Assembly (NCBI RefSeq): GCF_002234675.1
Contig: NC_019876.2
Location: 17,739,354-17,803,353 of the forward strand
Reading direction: 5' to 3'
DNA from: Oryzias latipes
Taxonomy: Eukaryota > Chordata > Actinopteri > Beloniformes > Adrianichthyidae
DNA: 64,000 nucleotides
Part shown: positions 1,035 through 60,611 of the stretch, piece after piece
Position numbering within the stretch: the first letter of the stretch is position 1
How the letters are laid out: each line of letters opens with the position of its first letter
Translations under genes and position numbers: made by a program
The notes under the pieces: generated by a model
Databases searched by the model: none
Told to the model about the DNA's origin: nothing
Seen by the model: only the letters and a program-made list of their open reading frames with translations

Positions 1035-4000
1035 ATGAGAGAACAACACGACGAGTCAACATGCTTCATTGGGGAGGTAAGACACGGTTGATGCCTGATA
1101 GATACAAGAGTTTGTAAACCTGTGTTGTTAATGTTTTATCACAGTTTGTCACAGATACTCAGTACTTTGGCTTGAAAAACCAGGGAGCAACCTGCTACCT
1201 GAACAGCGTTCTGCAGATTCTCTACATGACCAAAGACTTCAGAGAAGCTCTGAAAAGGTTTGTGATACTTTCACATTAAATATTGTCAGGTGTTAGGCTT
1301 AATTTGCCATTATTGTTTTAAATATCCTTATACTATTTGATTTGTTTTTGCCATAGAAACTCCTGTGACCCTACATGTATAGATCCTGAACTTGCAGCTT
1401 TGTTTGAGAACCTGAAAAAAAGCCTGGCAGAGACAACGGAAATTACTAAAAAGCTTGGCATTGATAGAGGTAAAGTAAAATCTCCCTTTTTAGTCTTTAA
1501 ATGAGCTGAATAAAGACAGAAAACACACTTTATGATGTTATTAGATCACTGAAACCTTATATATATATTTTTTTAGTCATGTACCATATTTTTTTTGATT
1601 AGTTGCACTGGAGTTTAAGTCGCAGGGGCCAAAAAAAATCCAAAATTAAGAAGAAAAAAACATGTACAAGTCTTTTTGGAGTGTAAGTCGCACATTTGGG
1701 AGAAAAGTGCAACGCTTCTGAACAAATTCACCAAAACTGCCGTGATGCTGCGCTCATTCCGAACATGATTCACATGTCCTTGATTTGCGTCCGCTGCCTT
1801 ATTTTCGACGCACCTCAAATTTATTTATTTTGAAGAGCTCTACAAAAGCACTGGTAAACACATCCGCACGGCAGGGTTCACGAGATCAGTTAGAGCAGGG
1901 GTGCCCAAATCCAGGCCTTGAGGGCCAGTGTCCTGTTTGTCTTCCAACCACCCTGCCATTGAAGCTCCTAAACACACCTGATCCAGGTAATCAGCGGCAG
2001 ATAATGCAGAGTTTCGGGAGAACCAGCAGGAGGCCGCCCCTCAAGACCTGGATTTGGAAATCCCTGATATACAGCATTGTTTGTTTTTAAGGTGATCTTT
2101 GTGATCAGTGTCTGAATGACAGCTGCTTTCAAACTCAAACTCAAACTCAAACTTTATTTATTTATATAGCGCCTTTCATTTTGGTTAAAAACACAAAGCG
2201 CTTAACATAAAAACAGATAAAACAGTCATAAAAAGTGAAAGTTATTAAAAACAGAAAACAAAGGACAATCACACAAAGAAGGTACCCCTCCCTCACCACC
2301 CCCCGCCCCCACCCCCACCCACCCAGTTACCCCAGTAGAACCGTGAACAGAAAAAGAACTGCAGTTGAAGAAGGTCTGGCTTGGTACTGCTGCGAGGAAA
2401 CGATATCATGGGGATCCATTCATTCCAAGGCCCAGCCGGACCACAGGGGCCATTACCGCAGCGCCCGCCCAACACAGGGCAGCCCAGGGCCCCATCCATG
2501 GCTATTAGACCACAGAGTGGGACCCCAGCCCGCCCAACCAGAACGGGCACCACAGCAACGGCATGCCCTACAGGTCAAGCTGGTGGTGCCCAAGAACGAT
2601 GGATCCCCAAGAGGAAACACTGGAGTAAAAAAACATCAGAATAAAAAATAAAAATGATCATAAAATAACAACAATAAAAATAGAAAAAGATAAAAAATAA
2701 AATAAGATATAAGAATGTTAGTAATTAAAAAATAAAAAAATAAAAACGTCAGTGATTAAAACATAACCTAAGAATCATTGGTAAAATAACAATAAAAAGA
2801 ATTGCATATTAGAAACAAAGATAATAATAGTCCTTACAAGAAAATAAATAATTAAATATGTAAATAAATACCTCAATTAATAAATAGATGAATAATAAAA
2901 GACATAAGGAATGATCAAAGTCATATAAAAGCCAGACTAAAAAGGTGGGTCTTGAGCCTCTTCTTAAAAACCTCTACAGTCTCTGCGGCCCTGAGGTTCT
3001 CCGGCAGGCTGTTCCACAGGCGAGGACCATAATGGCAGAATGAAGCCTCACCATGTGTCTTGGTCCTTACCTTAGGGACAACTAAGAGGCCAGTGCCAGA
3101 GGACCTCAGGGTCCGCGAGGGTTCGTATTTTAAAATAATATAATTTCAGCGGTACTTTCGTCTCTCTGTAATTCAGTTTTATGACTTGCTGTCCCGCAAT
3201 AGTCCAAAAAAGGAAAAAACATAAAAACAAGAATAATAATGTCTTAATGCAAATAAGAAAAATATGATCAAGTTTACAAAAATACTGAGACACACACTCA
3301 CAGCGCCCTCTGGTGGTTGTTAGAGGGAAACTACAGCTAAAAGCCAACCAGTTTTTAGTGGGAAAATGCCAACTATATGAGCTAATATTTATTTCCATTA
3401 CATCGCATTACAGTTGTTCCCGAGTAAAAGTTGCACTCCTGTCAAACTATGGGAGAGAACTGGGACTTATAATCAGAAAAATGTGGTACTTACTTACAGC
3501 TAAGTAGAAACAAAAAACGTAACTTTTAAAACACACAAAAATGTTCATCGTAAATATAAGGAAGCCCATACTTCACGTTAACAACACAGATGAAATGGGA
3601 CAACAGATTAATATTTCTCTTTTTATCTTTGATTCTGGTTCTTCTATTTCTTAAGTTTATAAACAATGTGATGCAGCTGAGTACATCGAGAAGATATTAG
3701 ACCTTTGCAATCAAGAGGCTTCACAGGTAAAACATTCAGGATGCATTAAATAACGATGAATTTTACAAAGCTTTACAATATTGTCCATCTTTTTTTGTTT
3801 CCAGATCTTCCAGGGAGAATTGACAGACAGGACTGTGTGTGACATATGTGATGAAAAAACTGATGATGTCACTCGGTTCTGGAATCTGCCTCTTGCATTG
3901 GTGAAGACAGACATAGAAAATTACAGTGTGGTAAGTTACCTGAAAACGGGTAAAACCTCAAAGGTTTTAGTGAATTCTGTGCACTTTTTAAAAGAAGCAG

Positions 4001-5561
4001 AAATGCTGATGCATCTCTGAGGAAATTGTACTGGTTTTCATGTATGGTGTGTTTTTTCACTCTAAAATAAAACCTCTGCTAAAACAAAAATGGTGTCTCT
4101 GCAGGCGGACGCAATTGAGAAATTCTTTAAGAAGTCGTTTTTCAAAGAAGCATTCCAGCTGTACTGCGATAAGTGTTGCAGAAAATGCGATGCCTCCTCT
4201 GTAAGTACGAGAAAATCAGATAAACGTCTTTCTCACAACAACAATCTTGACACATTTCATTATTCTAAAGTGAATTTCAAAATAAAGTCAATTGATAGCT
4301 GTGTTTTTTTTTCAGGGCATCACGATCACACGTCATCCAGAAGTTTTGATGTTGCTGCTGAAGAGGTTTGAGTTCAACTACACTCACATGTCATACGTCA
4401 AAAACAACTGCGTTGTGGATGTGCCTGACACTCTAAACATACCAGAGGTATAGTTTTGAATCATTTTAAAACTGGCTGCAACCTGTTTTCATTTGAAATG
4501 TTCATTTTTTTCTTTTGCTTGCTTGCTTTGTTTGTGCTCATCAGGATCAGATCTATGAACTTTATGCCTTTGTGGAGCACACAGGTAGTCTTCAGTGTGG
4601 ACATTACACTGCAACAATCAAGAGTCAGGAAGAAAAAGACGCCAGATGGATTAAATTCAATGATTCTAATGTGACAGTAGTAAGTGCCCTCTTTTTTTGA
4701 CCAAAGTTTCCTTAAAAGATCCTAAAAAAACATACAGAGCCCTGGACATGACATTCAATGATATTCATAAATTATTTCCTCGAAATAATATGTAGTGTGT
4801 ACTAAATAGTATGTTGTGGCCACAATTTAGTATTTTTTGCACGAAATTGGCATTTTGTGGCCATAATTTAACGTTTTGTGTGCTCAAATTAGCACTTTTT
4901 GGGGGGCACAAAAACGTATTTTAGTATCATTAGGTCCTACTACAAATTTTTTTGCACAAAATATTAATTTGTGGCAAAATTTCTTTTTAATTTGAGGGAC
5001 TCATTTGTTTTGTTTATCATGTCCAGGACTTTTTTTTTATAACATTGTCTTTTTCTATTCATTACAGCTGGACAAACAGCCTTTCAGTGAAGCAAACCAG
5101 ACACTCAGGTAAGTTTTTGTCTTCTCATTTGGTTTAATTAGTTGACTTTTAGATTAATTCTATTATTTTTTTTCTCTCAAAAGCTCCAAGAGTGCTTATC
5201 TCCTGTTTTATAGAAAGAAAAGTAAGAAACAACACTCACATTTCTTCTGTATATATCTGGTGACCTTTCCTTGAGTTTGTGTTCTAACCCCTTTCACAAT
5301 AATGTGCAGGCATTGACAACCAAGACGACAGCGATGAATCCACTGACAGTGGCCTCCCATGTGAGCCATTGTACAACCTTGGTCCAGACGTTGAGCATGA
5401 ATCGATTGATATTCAGCAGGACACTTTACCCATAATTTTAAATCATGTAAACTATTATTCTATTCTTTTATATATGTTTTTCTTTTTGCTATTTTTATTT
5501 TACTGTGTGTTTTTCTGGCTAATCCCTTTTCAAGAGTTCTCCAGATGGTCTCATCCATTAA
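1035..5561 (+). CDS. USP-1: ubiquitin-specific protease (USP47-like), compact form
   Basis: Predicted cysteine deubiquitinase. Exons: 1035-1076, 1145-1257, 1357-1469, 3656-3726, 3805-3930, 4105-4200, 4316-4447, 4545-4679, 5068-5108, 5184-5221, 5310-5446 and probably 5535-5561 (about 356 aa). The Cys box reads [13 protein letters not shown] (about residues 26-38). The zinc-ribbon pairs CDIC and CDKC lie in exons 5 and 6, LLLKRFEF in exon 7, and the His box GHYTATI with FNDSNV in exon 8. Known USP chemistry makes these the catalytic Cys, His and Asn/Asp. The end is uncertain. If the weak donor at 5447 (GTAAAC) and acceptor at 5534 are used, the protein ends in SSPDGLIH. If not, the frame stays open to 5626 and adds a very hydrophobic stretch. 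Unlike USP-3 and USP-4 it has no long charged tail. A further tail exon near 6761-6892 is possible but not proven. Confidence 0.82.
1896..2065. mobile_element. hAT-type MITE, nested
   Basis: The left end CAGGGGTGCCCAAATCCAGG and the right end CTGGATTTGGAAATCCCTG are near inverted repeats of the CAGGGGTGCCCAA class common in fish. No 8-bp target duplication is visible, so the boundaries are approximate. Confidence 0.5.
2131..3130. repeat. Interspersed repeat (fish, class uncertain)
   Basis: Begins with a 'ctcaaact' tandem and TTTATTTATATAGCGCCTTT, runs through an A-rich middle, and ends with a conserved block ('ggtgggtcttgagcctcttc', 'ggcaggctgttccacaggcg') that I recognise as repetitive in teleosts. 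It lies wholly in an intron. The 138-aa open frame at 2235-2651 looks like repeat-derived noise. Confidence 0.5.
4780..5010. repeat. Intronic repeat with 'GTGGCCACAA' units, shared with 32340-32575
   Basis: Intron 8 of USP-1 holds several diverged copies of a short motif around 'tttgtggccacaatttagtatt'. A homologous block follows the truncated USP fragment at 32141-32284, in the same order relative to the exon-8 splice donor. The two regions are therefore copies of one duplicated segment. Confidence 0.6.
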
Positions 5562-59893: not shown

Positions 59894-60611
59894 ATGTTTT
59901 CATCATGGCGCAAACAAACTACCGGTAAGAAGAACGAATAAAAGATTTATTTATATTTTCCGACATTTTTTCGTGACTTTAAAAACCACCTTTATGGCTG
60001 TGCTAGAGCATGAAGGTATTCCTTATAAGGGGTTGTTGAACCAGGGAGCGACCTGCTACCTGAACAGCGTCCTGCAGGTCCTCTTCATGACCACAGACTT
60101 CAGAGAAGCCCTCCAGAGGTTTGTCGCGCACGCGCAGGACAATCTTCCCATTAACCCTCAGAACTGTTTCTCATGTTGTGTTTATGGTCCACACAGAAGT
60201 CACTCCGGATCCCTAGATCGTCGTCTAAAGGAGCTTTTTGATGAGCTGAAGGAATATGACTGCTATACTTATAAAATCACGAAGGCGCTGGGAATCACTG
60301 ATGGTAAAATGAATCACTTTTAGTGGAATTTTCTGTTGTAATAGTCAAATTTCTTAACATAGAAAGTTAAAGATTCAACGTTCAAGGTACGTTGTTGAAT
60401 TAAAGTTATTTTGACCTTATTAAGTCATTGTGTCTTCATGAAAGTCAGTTAATATGCCTGGAATTTAGCTTAATATACTATACAGACATTGTAGAACAAT
60501 TTGAACTAAAGAGTTTGTATTTTTTTATCCTCTGAAGGGTTTGTTCAAGCTGATGCTGCTGAATGCTTTGAGAAAATTCTGAGAAACATGACAAATCAAG
60601 AAGCGGCTCAG
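59894..60611 (+). CDS. USP-5: ubiquitin-specific protease, 5' part (runs off window)
   Basis: Exons 59894-59924, 60007-60118, 60197-60303 and 60538-60611, about 108 residues. It starts MFSSWRKQTT; the Cys box is [13 protein letters not shown], followed by LFMTTDFREALQ and, in exon 4, VQADAAECFEKIL. Exon 4 has a donor (GTATGA) after QEAAQ, exactly where the other USPs have theirs, and is one codon longer than theirs. The next exons (zinc fingers, His box) are not in the window. The following intron contains a 3.1-kb LTR element (60702-63835), which may or may not disturb splicing. No frame damage is seen in the visible part. Confidence 0.8.

Follow-up and report, generated by a model that had tools for sequence, protein, structure and literature searches.

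A locus of about 122 kb in Oryzias latipes is filled by ubiquitin-like, RBR-ligase and USP-protease genes

Can an animal genome keep a ubiquitin-like tag beside the enzymes that would attach and remove it? To our knowledge, the parts of modifier pathways in animals are usually scattered through the genome; a locus that holds tag, ligase and protease together would give a partner list for an uncharacterised modifier, and would open its E1, E2, targets and part in infection to direct tests. The question is raised by a stretch of 64,000 nucleotides of Oryzias latipes DNA (C18:17,739,354-17,803,353, in a 734-Mb genome of 25 contigs), here called the window, to which all coordinates below refer. 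An earlier note on this DNA, made from the letters alone, had seen ubiquitin-like proteins (UBLs), RBR-like zinc proteins and ubiquitin-specific proteases (USPs) interleaved in it. These three families emerged when the open frames of the window were compared with one another, and were identified through Pfam and PDB as RBR ligases, ubiquitin-like proteins and USPs. With 100 kb fetched on each side and the resulting 264 kb scanned with 21 exon peptides, the families were found to fill ~122 kb, from a UBL exon at -43,855 to USP_6 at +78,592, so that the cluster reaches beyond the window by ~44 kb upstream and ~15 kb downstream; outside these limits the scan returned a single weak match (E 0.024). 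The observation is therefore confirmed, and the cluster is larger than noted.

Genes of the three families are mixed along the whole cluster. Upstream of the window the order is a UBL_d exon, UBL_c (-), USP_0 (-), UBL_a (-), RBR_u0 (+, two exons only), RBR_u1 (+), a UBL exon (+), RBR_u2 (+), UBL_b (+), RBR_u3 (+) and part of an RBR gene (+). The window itself holds USP_1 (+), two UBL relic exons (-), USP_2 (-), RBR_A (+), a UBL relic (+), RBR_B (+), a USP relic (+), UBL_1 (+), the RBR_C relic (+), USP_3 (-), RBR_D (-), UBL_2 (-), USP_4 (+) and USP_5 (+), the last lying across the window end, and USP_6 (-) follows downstream. An arrangement as three separate arrays is rejected by this mixed order, and the notion that the locus consists of relics only is rejected by six intact RBR genes.

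What would make these UBLs candidate modifiers? UBL_a, UBL_b, UBL_c, UBL_1 and UBL_2 have two exons each with a common phase-1 intron; the others share 35-51% identity with UBL_a, and the alignment of the five has 15 invariant columns, among them the C-terminal GG, which is kept in 5/5. Both intact UBLs with a terminal GG that had been claimed for the window are present: UBL_1 (33358..33859, +; 107 amino acids (aa), two exons; C-terminus VKVHGG) ends exactly at the GG, and UBL_2 (53184..53540, -; 92 aa, two exons) ends in SLDGG-RGA. Past the GG, UBL_a carries L, UBL_b GLRH, UBL_2 RGA and UBL_1 nothing, while UBL_c stays open without a stop within the stretch shown, so that its end is uncertain; the UBL_d exon (-43.8 kb) ends without GG. 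The residues preceding the GG (KVP, TVH, KVH, SLD and DFS) differ from LRLR. Arg72 of ubiquitin directs the choice of E1, and with these non-LRLR tails UBA1 is thus not an obvious activator. The Pfam ubiquitin model PF00240 scored above its cut-off in three of the four UBLs scanned, with UBL_1 just under (23.1 vs 25.4), and a profile search of solved structures gave ubiquitin as the best match, with ISG15 among the matches. Relics of this family in the window are a second exon with a stop (7952..8062, -), a first exon with a stop (11479..11589, -; 91% DNA identity to the intact UBL_a upstream) and a further first exon (27107..27253, +); with the USP and RBR relics given below, relics of all three families occur there, as had been noted.

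The six complete RBR genes have four exons each, with GT-AG borders throughout, and encode 261-272 aa. Three lie upstream (RBR_u1, RBR_u2 and RBR_u3), and the three predicted for the window are all complete and free of internal stops: RBR_A (type I; 24049..26743, +; 272 aa), RBR_B (type II; 29953..31242, +; 267 aa) and RBR_D (type II; 50540..52098, -; 261 aa). Identity of the other intact RBRs to RBR_A is 51-83%. The Rcat pattern CPxC-x10-C-x4-C-x2-C-x4-C-x2-C, catalytic cysteine included, is present in 6/6 intact cluster RBRs. Among six other RBR loci fetched from the genome, it is identical in two (L030 and L031), has the same spacing without the proline in L029, is one residue shorter in L033 and L034, and was not found in L032. 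The relic RBR_C (type II; 34931..36639, +) has stops in exons 1 and 2 and a tyrosine at the catalytic Rcat position. Pfam IBR_1 was above cut-off at two stretches in each of the two full RBRs scanned and in 4/4 last exons, and a profile of the family matched the IBR of ARIH1 at E 2e-4; phmmer with one RBR against PDB gave nothing at E 0.01. Three type II RBRs begin with MGGNKIS, a possible N-myristoylation site (29953-29973 in RBR_B, and in RBR_u2 and RBR_u3), a start that is absent from RBR_D and from the type I genes. A copia-type retroelement, so identified by eye, occupies the first intron of RBR_u1 as a 1354-aa open frame (-19334 to -15273, +).

RING1 is unusual in this family. Its conserved ligands are C44, H46, C57, C70 and C81 only (6/6 RBRs); the first ligand pair is missing, as are ligands five and six, with T49 and S52 invariant in 6/6. 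As translated, RING1 lacks the eight-ligand, two-zinc pattern, and the ligands of one predicted zinc site are lost. By the usual order of ligands in RING domains, C44, H46, C70 and C81 are presumably the second site. A motif covering RING1 ligands one to six is not matched in 6/6 cluster RBRs; in the other loci the same search met only Rcat-like stretches, which cannot serve as a positive control for RING1. In the two RBRs scanned, no Pfam RING model matched and no further domain passed cut-off. No transmembrane stretch was seen in the six (highest 19-residue mean hydropathy 1.28). Relatives of the RBRs sought in viral and prokaryote contigs were not confirmed, with 21 and 85 pattern matches, respectively, and none passing tblastn.

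The proteases retain their working residues as well. All seven USPs (7/7) keep a Cys box, a GHY His box and FND, with USP_6 having SPGLTCYLN (first Asn changed) vs N-x-G-x-T-CYLN in the others; for USP_2 and USP_5 the Q-box exon is blank in our motif table, and related frames were seen in other comparisons. Of the five USPs counted earlier in the window, USP_1 to USP_4 have open catalytic exons, and the fifth, USP_5, runs on beyond 60.6 kb and past a minisatellite. USP_1 (1118..4700, +) is a putative USP47/USP18-like protease with Cys box NQGATCYLN and His box GHYTATI; USP_2 (19862..23193, -) is 72% identical to the upstream USP_0 across 198 residues; and USP_3 (44315..48066, -) has catalytic exons at 48066-45760. 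USP_4 (54088..58513, +) is the only USP with a full splicing model (nine exons drawn by eye, with a further small exon still missing from it), and the starts of USP_0, USP_1, USP_2, USP_3 and USP_6 are taken as the first catalytic exon, with unproven start codons. Pfam UCH scores 138.7 bits in USP_4, the best solved-structure match of which is USP47 (8.9e-30); USP12, USP46, USP2, USP7 and others outrank USP18 (1.5e-16). The first exons of USP_5 lie at 60000..64000 (+), and the gene continues to ~69-73 kb. A relic of a last catalytic exon is found at 32155..32305 (+).

Behind USP_0, USP_3, USP_4 and USP_5 stand charged C-terminal open frames of ~350-1150 aa (-37430 to -36375, -, for USP_0; 45655-44315, 446 aa, for USP_3; 57287-58513, +, 408 aa, for USP_4; 69546-73001, +, for USP_5); Pfam gave no match on the two of them that were searched. 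Within an intron of USP_5 lies a large GC-rich minisatellite (61315-63337; units of 27, 18 and 42 bp) with several frames open, bordered by direct repeats at 60669-61110 and 63413-63833, and a similar sequence, judged by eye, occurs inverted near 32669-33171.

Is the association peculiar to this locus? Genome-wide searches, in which the numbers of places are lower bounds and which cover one fish genome, suggest that it is. All eight genome matches of the RBR last exon fall inside the cluster (C18 17.726-17.790 Mb), as do 9/9 matches of UBL_1 (E up to 1). UBL_a gave 24 matches (E up to 0.1), of which 11, including the nine best (E <=3.3e-4), are in the cluster; the other 13 are units of polyubiquitin arrays on C12 and C14, with E near 0.01. 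With a first USP exon as query, the seven best of 11 matches (E <=1e-7) lie in the cluster and four weak ones on C3, C23, C8 and C13; a second USP exon was less clean, with 7/10 in the cluster. As controls, an E2 profile had all of its matches (66/66) away from the cluster, and the general IBR profile found 18 matches, of which 17 are spread over ten contigs outside it; at its threshold the IBR profile finds a single cluster copy, and is thus not sensitive to the cluster RBR family. The co-location of the three families exceeds chance, and the searches turned up no close relatives outside the locus; the naive chance that two further families land in the same 122 kb, computed post hoc, is 3e-8.

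Substitution patterns among the paralogues were estimated as pairwise NG86 ratios of nonsynonymous to synonymous rates (dN/dS), averaged over paralogue pairs; six USPs were used, as catalytic exon pieces only and with USP_0 left out. Values are 0.12-0.35 for the RBRs (10/15 pairs with usable dS, five saturated), 0.28-0.53 for the UBLs (10/10 pairs) and 0.17-0.38 for the USPs (13/15 pairs, two saturated), and all usable values are below 0.6. Young pairs (RBR_B-u3, dS 0.19; RBR_A-u1, dS 0.27) stand beside old ones with dS of ~1 or more, which occur in all three families. Between the regions at ~-34..-1 kb and 8..37 kb, pieces of RBR, USP and UBL genes match at 69-95% identity, as does part of the non-coding DNA; the order is partly collinear, with the USP and the UBL_a type exchanged, and some of the short matches are dispersed repeats. 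Interleaving thus partly reflects one copied block, with older members of all families having stayed in place as well.

Are the three families also arranged for common expression? Three head-to-head pairs join different families, namely UBL_a/RBR_u0 (683 bp), USP_2/RBR_A (856 bp; intergenic stretch 23194..24048) and UBL_2/USP_4 (548 bp; 53541..54087). Upstream sequences were searched for the core of the interferon-stimulated response element (ISRE), GAAANNGAAA, which was chosen before the promoters were viewed, at 19 gene starts and with circular shifts as control. An earlier count with three motifs and three distances had doubled shared intergenic sites, and a de-duplicated test was therefore used. 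Within 1 kb upstream lay 11/66 ISRE core sites vs 4.2 expected (p 0.0054) and 4/10 strict ISRE sites vs 0.64 expected (p 0.0098); within 500 bp these became 7/66 (p 0.010) and 3/10 (p 0.015), respectively. At either distance, the ISRE core gave a higher fraction than each of 12 permuted motifs. Strict sites occupy 23640-23651 and 23939-23950 in the USP_2/RBR_A interval, and ISRE-like sites 53919-53928 and 53976-53987 in the UBL_2/USP_4 interval, UBL_2 having two ISRE cores within 450 bp of its start.

In nine promoters viewed, a perfect ISRE core stands 110-112 bp before the ATG of RBR_A, UBL_1 and USP_4, the UBL_1 copy being TTTCACTTTC (33246..33255, -; 112 bp ahead of the start codon). Matches with one mismatch, viewed in the same 9/19 promoters and without a control of their own, are the only ones within 220 bp of RBR_u1, UBL_b, UBL_2, UBL_c and RBR_u0, the start of which is approximate (no ATG seen); UBL_a has none. 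A TGACG element, found post hoc, follows the ISRE in RBR_A, UBL_b and UBL_2. The composite of ISRE and TGACG is present in 3/19 promoters, a number reached by 0/1000 random sets, for a motif that was defined after the promoters had been viewed; TGACG alone is present in 6/19 (p 0.09). On these motifs, the cluster genes are probably interferon-responsive in this fish.

Reports from other fish are consistent with such a response. According to a 2025 study of Atlantic salmon (Grimholt et al., PMC12234341), two RNF144-annotated genes form a clade of their own with genes of teleosts, reptiles and monkeys, consist of the RBR only, were named ARIT and rise by a log2 fold of >11 with interferon-gamma (IFN-gamma); a USP47-like clade adjoining USP18, named USP18-like, rises by >4. 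The feature set of the ARIT clade (RBR only, no transmembrane stretch) fits the cluster RBRs at 261-272 aa. In further papers, a table for trout infected with Ceratonova shasta lists LOC110500498 (RNF144A-A, 5.2) together with LOC110500501 (USP47-like, 3.1) (PMC8467531), and LOC110500498 is up in at least three leukocyte populations after infectious pancreatic necrosis virus (PMC11258392). Near-consecutive trout LOC numbers often follow the chromosome, which would make this RBR and this USP neighbours. In one of these papers some near-consecutive numbers share a family name, as do LOC110503177 and 503178, both TRIM47 (PMC11258392). No paper was found for the numbers next to LOC110500498. Two RNF144A-A probes appear in the poly(I:C) section of a cod spleen data set with values of 2.35-7.10, the last column reading -1.92 and -2.83 (PMC3534563); RNF144A-A was strongly induced in salmon only at heavy R. 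salmoninarum infection (PMC7656060); and in alphavirus-challenged salmon an expression locus was most strongly tied to a ubiquitin-like protein, which may be ISG15, and to RNF144A-A (PMC7316828). We infer that the RNF144A-A genes of these papers belong to the RBR family of the window. No report of linkage between UBL, RBR and USP families was found in a literature search of open-access journal papers.

How might the parts work together? The locus may hold immune, interferon-responsive components of a single protein-modification cycle. In such a cycle the UBL would be a single-domain modifier with or without a short tail past the invariant GG; the RBR would act as a thioester-forming ligase, the Rcat cysteine of which would accept the modifier from an E2 encoded elsewhere in the genome; and the USP, of the USP47/USP18 branch, would trim UBL tails and take the UBL off its targets. 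Short intergenic promoters with ISRE-like sites would turn on all three families together, and block duplication would have multiplied the UBL-RBR-USP set. The earlier note had suggested a shared job for these genes. This gains from their common locus, the retained working residues, the low dN/dS, the head-to-head pairs, the ISRE-like enrichment and the strong interferon induction of a similar RBR clade and a USP47-like gene in salmon, and loses part of the gene-order argument. We put an interferon-responsive modifier-ligase-protease set that works like ISGylation and is not ISG15 at close to an even chance. More tentatively, the locus might represent a further immune modifier system of vertebrates, separate from that of ISG15, in which members of a family of GG-ended UBLs each have their own RBR with a one-zinc RING1 and their own USP, in a co-regulated cluster between SLC7A7 and LRP10/MMP14 that an arms race with fish pathogens enlarged set by set; this wider proposal is possible but doubtful. 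Either would offer a candidate UBL partner for the interferon-induced salmon ARIT and USP18-like, and a half-RING1 ligase with which to study E2 recognition by RBRs.

Several findings weigh against a dedicated set of this kind. Block duplication behind part of the interleaving makes gene order weaker evidence, so that the interleaved sets of the earlier note stand as a mixed order but only in part as a sign of function. RBR_u0, a partner in one head-to-head pair, is a fragment of two exons. Gamma-activated sites (GAS) are not enriched (2/44 within 1 kb, p 0.80), whereas salmon ARIT answers IFN-gamma, and a perfect ISRE core near the start (within 220 bp) is present in UBL_1 alone of the five UBLs. 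With the second USP exon, a place on C8 (1.9e-6) outscores two cluster copies. An E2 profile had 66 genome matches, none on C18 and none in the cluster, by which an E2 gene within the cluster is rejected; E1 was not searched. The putative identity of the window RBRs with ARIT draws on shared features; salmon ubiquitin-like genes that group with UBB, UBC, UBA52 and RPS27A showed no induction (PMC12234341); and AlphaFold2 gave the IBR-Rcat exon a mean confidence (pLDDT) of 41.9. Interferon induction in this fish, conjugation of the UBLs, specificity of RBRs and USPs for them and an antiviral role are all put forward as suppositions.

An alternative sees the RBRs and USPs as interferon-induced enzymes acting on ubiquitin or ISG15, with unconjugated UBLs that regulate or act as decoys, such as baits for viral deubiquitinases, in a co-regulated immune block rather than a dedicated cycle. 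That USP47 is the best solved match, with USP18 lower, fits this, as does the putative nature of any specificity of RBRs and USPs for the UBLs; the salmon authors raise ISG15 as a possible ARIT partner, as for ARIH1 (PMC12234341). However, the GG is invariant at the UBL C-terminus though the adjoining residues vary, the short tails past it in three of four clear UBL models resemble precursors, and the UBLs lie in the same locus, head to head with the other families; we regard this alternative as rather unlikely. Neutral linkage, in which ancestral chance neighbours with no common job were multiplied by local and block duplication, would explain the partly collinear copies at ~-34..-1 kb and 8..37 kb and sits well with several relics, repeats and transposon-like frames. 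It would not, however, need all three families to belong to one pathway, nor ISRE-like sites to be enriched upstream; moreover, paralogues with dS of ~1 or more in all three families are still within 122 kb, whereas other IBR genes are scattered, and the near-consecutive trout numbers hint at RBR-USP linkage there as well. Neutral linkage is thus improbable. That the UBLs are split or degenerate copies of ISG15, and the cluster a relocated ISGylation set, draws on the functional parallel and on ISG15 among the UBL profile matches. The UBLs have a single domain and tails (VHGG, PGG, LDGG, FSGG) unlike LRLRGG, and the earlier note had already said that the components differ from those of the ISG15 system; their best profile matches are ubiquitin; and a separate gene on C9 (12989586-12990047, -), unlinked to the cluster, has two ubiquitin domains in one open frame and is ISG15-like by layout. 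On these grounds a relocated ISG15 set is rejected as highly improbable.

To the left of the cluster lie SLC7A7 (3.6e-80), a SALL2-looking C2H2 protein, a RING protein and a TPR frame, and to the right a protein with LDL-receptor repeats that resembles LRP10 by eye, and MMP14 (5.7e-49). In human, these flanking genes map to 14q11.2, with SLC7A7, MMP14 and LRP10 in close proximity. A 408-aa open frame at 15959-17185 (-), which matches GDSL lipase weakly (2.6e-6, below cut-off), is probably part of a long interspersed element (LINE). It is the one weak match in a chosen sample of 20 other open frames of the window, beside two marginal, chance-like ones.

Among known systems, bacterial Bil-type operons place a UBL and a deconjugating enzyme side by side for defence, along with E1 and E2; the cluster likewise pairs UBL and deconjugating enzyme, but no E2 was found in it and its enzymes are of animal families. 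FAT10 is a cytokine-induced, GG-ended modifier with a non-LRLR tail and two UBL domains, and the cluster UBLs resemble it in the GG end and the non-LRLR tail but have a single domain. With HHARI/ARIH1, parkin and RNF144 the cluster RBRs share IBR and Rcat, the latter spaced as in two other RBR loci, and differ in a RING1 without the ligands of one zinc site and in the absence of a transmembrane stretch and of any further domain found. The salmon ARIT and USP18-like pair is alike in having an RBR-only ligase without a transmembrane stretch and a USP47-like protease next to USP18; by contrast, the available sections of that paper describe no linkage and no linked UBL, and call the RBR structure typical. 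ISGylation (ISG15, UBA7, UBE2L6, HERC5/TRIM25/ARIH1 and USP18) likewise joins a ubiquitin-like tag with an interferon-linked ligase and a USP18-branch protease, for which the cluster has probable counterparts, and ARIH1, listed as an ISG15 ligase, is itself an RBR. The cluster differs in that its single-domain tag lacks LRLRGG, its ligase is an RBR-only protein without one RING1 zinc site, and tag, ligase and protease are neighbours.

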